This document shows, one piece after another, positions 6,548 to 8,722 of a DNA stretch of 20,464 bases. The notes under the pieces were generated by a model, which did not search any database, was not told the DNA's origin, and saw only the letters and a program-made list of their open reading frames with translations. Source of the DNA: a virus; IMG/VR virus record IMGVR_UViG_3300048433_000044, positions 1 to 20,464 of that record; one strand, 5' to 3'. The translations under genes were made by a program, and so were the position numbers. Within the stretch, counting starts at the first letter, position 1. The number at the start of each line of letters is the position of its first letter.

Positions 6548-7477
6548 ATGACAGATTTAGTTACAATTAATACAGACAATTATGCTACTATGGCTAAGGC
6601 AATGGGCTTGCCTACTAGTACTGTTGAGAAGAAGGCTAACACCTTAAACAGATTTAGAATATGGCACAACCCTACAATGGGCATAGGTGAAGCTAATGGA
6701 AAGTCTGTTAAGATGGAAGTTGTTGAAGGAGGTATGTACAGATTAGAAGTACCAGGAGACCCTAGTACATTTTACTTTTCTGAAAAGGTAAAGTTTAGAC
6801 CCTTCTTACAAAGGTTTATGTATAAGAAGTTTACGCAGAATCGCAATGTAAAAGAAGGAGATAAGCAAGGTGGTTATGTTAAAACAATAATGGCTGATAC
6901 ACTAAACATTGACCTTAAAGATGATGACGGCACTTTTAACTGTGGTAAACCAACAGGATATGTTAAAGACTTTCAATCCCTTCCCGAAGCTACAAAAAAA
7001 CTTATAAAGGAGATTAAAAGAACTAGAGTTGTGTTTGGTCTTATAAAGATGGTAGACCCTGTAAAAGGGATTGATGGCAGAGAGATTGCAGACTTGCCTG
7101 AATATCCTGTAATATGGGAGATAGAAAATAGAGATGCTTACAAAGCCATTGGAGATGTCTTTTCTAGGTTTGCCAAATCGCAGAGCTTACCTCTTCAACA
7201 TGTTATAAAGCTAGAGGGCACTAAGGAAAATAAACTCAATAATGGTGGTAGCTTTTATACGCCAATAGTACAGCTAGACACAACAAGTAAAATTGAGATA
7301 TCTGATAGTGACCATAAAGCATTTGGAGACTTCTTGGATTGGGTAAAGAACTACAATGATGGTATTATAAGTAAGTGGGATACCAAGGTTTCAGAAAGAC
7401 AAGATGAAGTGTCAGAGGAAGATATGGAAACTGTAGAAAACTTTATTGATGTAGAGATAGATACTGATGCTAAGTAA
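6548..7477 (+). CDS. Probable single-stranded DNA-binding protein
   Basis: A 309-residue soluble protein directly after the polymerase. It has no motif I recognise with certainty. The last ~27 residues (283-309) are strongly acidic (DEVSEEDMETVENF, then VEIDTDA), the kind of tail phage SSBs use to recruit replication proteins. The middle is rich in Lys, Phe and Tyr, for example KVKFRPFLQRFMYKKF at 81-96, suitable for stacking on single-stranded DNA. The position between polymerase and a RecB-like nuclease matches the SSB slot of T7-like replication clusters (gp2.5 next to gp3 and gp5). The start is set by TTTTGAAAGGAG 10 bases upstream. The role is inferred from context and the acidic tail. 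Confidence 0.5.
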   Translation: MTDLVTINTDNYATMAKAMGLPTSTVEKKANTLNRFRIWHNPTMGIGEANGKSVKMEVVEGGMYRLEVPGDPSTFYFSEKVKFRPFLQRFMYKKFTQNRNVKEGDKQGGYVKTIMADTLNIDLKDDDGTFNCGKPTGYVKDFQSLPEATKKLIKEIKRTRVVFGLIKMVDPVKGIDGREIADLPEYPVIWEIENRDAYKAIGDVFSRFAKSQSLPLQHVIKLEGTKENKLNNGGSFYTPIVQLDTTSKIEISDSDHKAFGDFLDWVKNYNDGIISKWDTKVSERQDEVSEEDMETVENFIDVEIDTDAK

Positions 7478-8216
7478 TAATGCTTTCAAAGCACATGGTA
7501 TTAACTACCTTTCACCAAGTAGTATAAATACATATATCAGTGACCCACCTATGTGGGTCGCTAGATATCTATTCAAAGTGAAATCATCAAGTGGTCCAGG
7601 TGCAGTTAGAGGCATTGCAACGGAGCACGTATTAGCTAACAAATATAATGAAGGCACATTTGATTATAAAATGCTTGACTTAAAATTCATTAGCTTATGC
7701 ACAGAATCTATGGTTGATTTAGGAGATAAGAAGGCAGAGAAAGAAAGGAGTACTTTAGAAAAGTTTGGAGAAGTTATAGATAAAAATTTTAACTATAAAG
7801 ACTTAGAAGACTATCAAGAAAGAGTTGAAGTACAGTTAGATGATTTGCCTGTACCTATCATGGGCTACATAGATTTTAGATTTAAAGATAAAATTGTAGA
7901 TTTAAAAACATCTACAAGGATGCCAACACAGCCAACTGAAGCACAAAAAAGACAGATGGCTTTGTACTCTATGGCATACCCTAAGAGTAGTGTGGACTTA
8001 TTTTTTGCTACACCAAAAGAGCATAAAGTGTTCACACTTAAAAATTTGGCTTCTTATAAAAAGCAACTTGAAAAGGTTGCTTATAGCATACAGAAGTTTT
8101 TGTCTATCAGCGATGATAAACATGAGTTAGCTTCTTTTATGTATCCTAACCTTGACTCTTGGATGTGGAATGGTAAGATGAAAGAAGAAGCAAAAAAAAT
8201 ATGGAGTGTAAAATAA
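7467..8216 (+). CDS. RecB/Cas4-like PD-(D/E)XK nuclease
   Basis: A 249-residue nuclease of the RecB-like branch of the PD-(D/E)XK superfamily. Visible motifs are GIATEHVL at 49-56 (the His/Glu box), GYIDFRF with Asp136, IVDLKTST with Asp145 and Lys147, and QMALY at 163-167, the QxxxY box of RecB/Cas4 proteins. In phages this family often supplies the exonuclease that degrades host DNA and prepares ends for recombination, a job done by gp6 in T7. No Cas4-type cysteine cluster is seen (only Cys78), so an iron-sulfur centre is unlikely. It overlaps the preceding gene by 11 bases. The ATG at 7467 is the only plausible start before Met29. Confidence 0.8.
   Translation: MLSNNAFKAHGINYLSPSSINTYISDPPMWVARYLFKVKSSSGPGAVRGIATEHVLANKYNEGTFDYKMLDLKFISLCTESMVDLGDKKAEKERSTLEKFGEVIDKNFNYKDLEDYQERVEVQLDDLPVPIMGYIDFRFKDKIVDLKTSTRMPTQPTEAQKRQMALYSMAYPKSSVDLFFATPKEHKVFTLKNLASYKKQLEKVAYSIQKFLSISDDKHELASFMYPNLDSWMWNGKMKEEAKKIWSVK
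8203..8206 (+). promoter_or_regulatory. GGAG ribosome binding site serving the ATG at 8216
   Basis: GGAG lies 9 bases before the ATG at 8216, which overlaps the previous stop (TAATG). By contrast, the TTG start of endonuclease I at 8270 has no recognisable Shine-Dalgarno, so ribosomes probably enter this region at 8216. Confidence 0.5.
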
Positions 8217-8269
8217 TGTCTGATACATATTCGTATAGTAATCCCTTTATATCTTGGCGAAACTTTTAG
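8216..8269 (+). other. 17-codon ORF ending in amber, in frame with endonuclease I
   Basis: ATG at 8216 (TAATG overlap, GGAG 9 bases upstream) encodes MSDTYSYSNPFISWRNF and ends in TAG at 8267-8269. The next codon, in the same frame, is the TTG that begins the endonuclease I gene. It could be a short leader peptide giving termination-reinitiation, a true N-terminus cut off by a point mutation to amber, or an amber read through at low level. The aromatic-rich peptide looks like genuine coding sequence, but this is inference. Confidence 0.45.
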
Positions 8270-8722
8270 TTGTCTCCTCATAAATTAAGAAGAGATGCTA
8301 TAAAGCATGGGTATAGGAGTGGCTTAGAACATAAGTTATCCATCTATCTTAAAGAACATAAGTTTAAATTCTCTTATGAGTCTATTAAAATAGAGTGGGA
8401 AGATTTATTGTATCGCACTTATACCCCTGACTTCATACTAGACAATGGTATAATTGTAGAAACGAAAGGTAGATTTCTAGTATCTGATAGGCGAAAACAT
8501 TTAGCTATTCAGAAACAGCACCCTAAACTAGACATTAGATTTGTGTTTACAAATAGCAGGGTTAAGTTATACAAAGGCAGTAAAACAACGTATGCCCAAT
8601 GGTGCATAAAACATAAGTTTAGATACTATGACAGAATCATACCCGAAGATTGGCTTAAAGAAAAGGGCAAAAACAAACACCCTGTTTTTATAAAGTTTGT
8701 TGGTAAAAAAATAAGGAGATAA
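8270..8722 (+). CDS. T7-type endonuclease I (Holliday junction resolvase)
   Basis: A 150-residue resolvase of the T7 gp3 family, which cuts four-way junctions and helps break down host DNA. It aligns well with remembered T7 gp3: GYRSGLEHKL at 14-23 (Glu20), YTPDFIL at 51-57 (Asp54), the catalytic VETKGRF at 63-69 (Glu64, Lys66), DRRKHLAIQKQHPKLDIRFVF at 73-93 in T7-like order, NSRVKLYKGS at 95-104, and a lysine-rich C-terminus. From the TTG at 8270 the distance to the RSGLE motif equals that of T7 gp3 and the total length is nearly the same, supporting this start. However, the TTG has no clear Shine-Dalgarno and directly follows an in-frame TAG ending a 17-codon ORF. Confidence 0.88.
   Translation: MSPHKLRRDAIKHGYRSGLEHKLSIYLKEHKFKFSYESIKIEWEDLLYRTYTPDFILDNGIIVETKGRFLVSDRRKHLAIQKQHPKLDIRFVFTNSRVKLYKGSKTTYAQWCIKHKFRYYDRIIPEDWLKEKGKNKHPVFIKFVGKKIRR

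Follow-up and report, generated by a model that had tools for sequence, protein, structure and literature searches.

What the codon in front of endonuclease I represents, and how ribosomes come to start on that gene, are the questions raised by this locus. In the 20,464-nucleotide stretch of DNA analysed here (the window), which belongs to a marine HMO-2011-like phage, an open reading frame (ORF) of 17 codons ends in a TAG that is followed immediately, in the same frame, by the TTG start codon of the endonuclease I gene. The original prediction offered three readings of this arrangement: a leader peptide limiting the synthesis of a toxic nuclease, a recent amber mutation that interrupts what was a longer endonuclease N-terminus, or partial readthrough of the TAG.

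Anatomy of the exonuclease-endonuclease I junction

The layout initially described (17 codons preceded by a ribosome site and TAATG, ending in TAG, then TTG) proved correct to the base. The features of the junction, with the readings suggested by comparison with relatives, are as follows.

7467..8216, + strand: PD-(D/E)XK exonuclease-like gene, 249 aa (PF12705, E 3.5e-6)
8203..8206, + strand: GGAG, Shine-Dalgarno-like, 9 nt 5' of the ATG of the short ORF
8214..8218, + strand: TAATG, a 1-nt overlap of the exonuclease stop and the short-ORF start (ATG 8216-8218)
8216..8269, + strand: 17-codon ORF, MSDTYSYSNPFISWRNF and stop; apparent remnant of a 74-80-codon gene (comparison with relatives)
8223..8225, + strand: junction left by the deletion, at a 3-bp ATA microhomology (seen against L086, L003 and L088)
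8228..8266, + strand: retained conserved C-terminal tail, YSYSNPFISWRNF (in the intact gene, dN/dS ~0.016 for the final 10 codons)
8267..8269, + strand: TAG, read as the ordinary stop of the upstream gene (TAG or TAA at the same place in relatives)
8270..8722, + strand: endonuclease I, T7 gp3-like (Phage_endo_I), with a TTG start and without a Shine-Dalgarno sequence

The exonuclease gene stops at the TAA at 8214-8216, and the C-terminus of its product (...KKIWSVK) is intact and common to more than 20 relatives. The codons of MSDTYSYSNPFISWRNF occupy 8216-8266, with TAG directly 3' and the TTG at 8270-8272. The GGAG at 8203, which lies inside the C-terminal codons of the exonuclease gene and is kept in close relatives, is the sole Shine-Dalgarno-like word in 8196-8275; none was found in this interval before the TTG, as had been claimed. 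RNA structure at the junction did not exceed that of shuffled sequences (the deleted forms gave z 0.29 and 0.17, intact L003 -1.28). Under a null model with the DNA composition of the window, a random ATG ORF has a chance of ~2% of stopping exactly at codon 18; the short ORF alone thus proves little, and the case rests on relatives.

The 150-aa product of the downstream gene matches Phage_endo_I with an E-value of 3.5e-49 and a score of 166.7 bits against a curated cut-off of 29.1, on which basis it is assigned to the phage endonuclease I family (PF05367). Compared with members such as T7 gp3 (PF05367, PHROG 945), the protein matches strongly over residues 12-135 and is unremarkable; its gene likewise has its start at the usual position, after the DNA polymerase and exonuclease genes, and the start codon is TTG. 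Relatives carry GTG (80), ATG (41) or TTG (24) at the same position in the 145 loci compared, which agrees with the earlier choice of the TTG as the true start.

A small gene at the same place in related phages

A search with endonuclease I retrieved 80 viral contigs at 79-99% identity. Upstream of the endonuclease start, the translations of two very close contigs are those of the window, and those of the next in closeness, L003 and L004, read ...DEAVKEELKSLGY....YSYSNPFISWRNF followed by a stop. The exonuclease of L003/L004-type relatives ends in the same ...KKIWSVK and stop as that of the window, which makes the extra sequence in these relatives a separate gene. In close relatives this gene comprises 74-80 codons and extends from the exonuclease stop, in several cases through TAATG, to the endonuclease start; L003, L004, L085 and L086 have genes of 74-75 codons at this locus with the same C-terminal tail, and the start context in L003, L085 and L086 is that of the window. 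The small gene of the closest relatives begins at the same ATG and has the same ending (...YSNPFISWRNF and stop), its stop abutting the endonuclease start.

The tail of the short ORF and the C-terminus of the intact gene share 13 of 16 residues (tblastn on the window, E ~2e-6). For ISWR(N/T)F-type genes, of which 36 distinct ones were compared, dN/dS was ~0.05 for the body and 0.016 for the final 10 codons; the corresponding values for 46 genes of the GWR type were ~0.14 and ~0.11. By these ratios the gene is real and under strong purifying selection. A deficit of synonymous changes in the tail, suggested by a dN/dS run on five genes, vanished with 36 genes.

A recognisable member with an NPFIS or GWR tail is found at about 100 of the 145 distinct loci (L003:2776-3000 among them), and we note that in marine HMO-2011-like phages these members form a helical family of 67-80 aa that is encoded between the exonuclease and endonuclease I genes and whose aromatic C-terminal tail varies (NPFISWRNF, NPFTGWRRLL, NWYWRDLT and others). 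In L028, a Trp codon in the tail, near the endonuclease start, is replaced by TGA and the last residues are lost, suggestive of an independent lesion or a sequencing error. Pfam and PHROGs searches with the small protein returned weak coiled-coil-like matches and no clear assignment. Structure prediction gave one long helix and a tail (mean pLDDT 67, pTM 0.29), values too weak for a fold search, so that the protein is predicted, with low confidence, to consist mostly of one long helix followed by the aromatic C-terminal tail. The comparison points to a family of small, strongly conserved proteins in marine HMO-2011-like phages that is as yet undescribed.

The HMO-2011-type roseophages CRP-1 and CRP-345 carry the gene at the same place and at full length (gp22 and gp31, respectively, both annotated as hypothetical proteins), whereas the window keeps only its ends; gp22 and gp31 are diverged members that have a helical body with shared invariant residues and are 39-51% identical to the intact version found in close relatives. 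HMO-2011, in contrast, is without an intervening gene, and its exonuclease gene directly overlaps the endonuclease start. The ORF of the window sits where family members sit, between exonuclease and endonuclease I, starting at the stop of the former and stopping at the start of the latter, and it lacks, through deletion, the conserved helical body (LxxxIxxMEKxLAEAK...GLxxAxEAxKxADEAVKEE). A search of the 20-kb window for a second copy of the small gene returned no convincing candidate (best other match E 2.8). Judged from these comparisons, the ORF is best described as a remnant and not as a working member of the family.

A 171-bp deletion upstream of endonuclease I

Relative to L003, the window is short of 171 bp (224-53 = 171; 57 codons), in frame. 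It retains ATG TCT GAT and then reads ACA TAT TCG TAT ... TAG; the first three to four codons and the conserved tail remain, and the breakpoint is ambiguous within a shared ATA. In relatives, the arms of the deletion are CTGATA on the left and CTAATA on the right, with ATA common to both. Microhomology of this kind is left by slippage or illegitimate recombination, and one such event at ATA probably removed the 57 codons, leaving the beginning of the gene, its tail and its stop in place. We consider it highly probable that the 17-codon ORF is the remnant of an in-frame deletion in a separate small gene and that the TAG is the stop of that gene; its junction with endonuclease I is probably coupled. 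This 171-bp event was not among the readings of the original prediction.

The same junction is present in three other metagenome contigs, L082 (99.9% identical to the window), L084 (99.96%) and L083 (93.2% over 8.1 kb). An assembly error as the source of the deletion appears very unlikely given this recurrence, one of the three contigs being diverged by ~7%. The carriers of the deletion are mutually closest relatives in both exonuclease and endonuclease DNA, and a single event on their common branch therefore suffices. Between the window and L083, the 211 bp at 8088-8298 are without a difference, although the contigs diverge by ~7% overall and the flanking genes by ~4%. The region of the deletion junction may have recombined locally; since recombination, low local divergence and constraint are indistinguishable in this identity, the persistence of the remnant is not proof of function. 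Retention of the frame, expected a priori in one deletion out of three, is likewise weak evidence for selection. A deletion out of frame would shift termination away from the TTG, and retention of the frame may thus have been required.

The loss of the small gene before endonuclease I is real, well explained and mostly ordinary, and what began as a speculative reading of a stop codon is replaced by a documented event of gene decay. That the remnant is kept on purpose, as a micropeptide, through an aromatic tail still binding a partner, or purely as a ribosome-delivery cistron (a natural minimal coupling cistron), seems to us an unlikely prospect.

The TAG and the initiation of endonuclease I

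The stop-start junction was compared across the 145 distinct loci. The gap between the stop of the upstream gene and the start of endonuclease I is 0 or -1 nt in 120 of them, and the stop is TAG or TAA, rarely TGA. A stop directly precedes the start at 59 loci, and nearly all others have the endonuclease frame closed within ~20 codons upstream, so that endonuclease I has no family-wide in-frame extension. A gap of -1 places the two genes in separate frames, which argues against their descent from a single fused gene interrupted by a stop. All this identifies the TAG at 8267-8269 as the normal stop of the upstream gene and not an amber mutation.

The remaining explanations may be weighed against this background. 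That a recent amber mutation or a sequencing error split a longer endonuclease N-terminus, or that TAG readthrough yields a fusion, would accommodate an upstream peptide that looks coding and lies in the endonuclease frame. The homologue comparison proposed by the original prediction, namely whether the peptide upstream of the endonuclease start continues without a stop, gave the opposite answer: TAG or TAA stands at this place in the closest relatives and ends a separate gene, the same TAG occurs in L082, L083 and L084, and the N-terminus starting at TTG fits phage endonuclease I. Neither the 59 loci with an abutting stop nor the early closure of the frame in nearly all the rest is consistent with a longer protein, and conserved in-frame coding across the stop, the mark of readthrough, was not found in the relatives, in many of which the two genes overlap by 1 nt and so occupy different frames. 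We regard this explanation as very improbable. More remote still is a chance ORF without relation to any gene. Its exact length has the ~2% probability given above, but the match of its tail to the conserved C-terminus of an intact, selected gene at the same locus refutes this reading. The suspicion that the upstream peptide is coding was therefore well founded, and the similarity upstream of the TTG in relatives, whose absence would have marked the ORF as fortuitous, was found. Equally remote is the idea that the exonuclease lost its C-terminus by a frameshift, with the short ORF as its tail, accessible through -1 slippage at an A8 run. Such a run does lie shortly before 8200 and the short ORF is in the -1 frame relative to the exonuclease, but ...KIWS(V/I/L)K and a stop end the exonuclease also in relatives with a full-length small gene, and the tail is part of another gene, which starts from an ATG of its own. 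With the exonuclease C-terminus intact and conserved, this candidate was ruled out.

Termination-reinitiation is known from stop and start codons that overlap or abut where the downstream initiation site is weak (PMC6728339, PMC10666635, PMC12548453). Reporter studies in E. coli showed that the process requires an overlap or a very short gap and that 15 nt at the end of the upstream gene suffice (PMC10666635), and short upstream ORFs may serve only to deliver ribosomes to the downstream gene (PMC12548453). Like these systems, the window combines an upstream cistron whose own initiation site is good, a stop (TAG 8267-8269) abutting the next start (TTG 8270; 0 or -1 nt in the family) and a poor downstream site (TTG, no Shine-Dalgarno sequence). 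Unlike known coupled pairs, it has as its upstream cistron the 17 codons left by a deletion, and the coupling is deduced here from sequence. Ribosomes ending at the TAG would most likely reinitiate on the TTG, and termination-reinitiation is the likely route by which this start is used. The 17-codon remnant may still deliver ribosomes to endonuclease I, in which case retention of the frame would have preserved the coupling.

Coupling of this kind was also the core of the leader-peptide proposal, and that part of it, a plausible means of using a TTG without a Shine-Dalgarno sequence, stands; the evolved metering of a toxic nuclease does not. A 17-codon regulatory leader is favoured by the good Shine-Dalgarno sequence and TAATG before the ORF and by the stop right at the TTG. 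Against it, the ORF arose when a deletion shortened a 74-80-codon gene, the same kind of junction is found in relatives with the full gene or with other upstream genes, and HMO-2011 has no gene in between, its exonuclease overlapping the endonuclease start. Short length is therefore not what makes the coupling, and the adjacency of stop and start is the general arrangement of the family and not an evolved leader peptide. As the origin of the ORF, a leader peptide is largely refuted and in our estimation improbable. Relatives with a 74-75-codon upstream cistron and the window with its 17-codon counterpart, both before the same endonuclease start, provide a natural pair for measuring coupling.

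Elsewhere in the window, 1091-2074 encodes a protein that by eye resembles a tyrosine recombinase. Such a protein would fit a temperate lifestyle, which has been proposed for some HMO-2011-type phages (PMC9038755).
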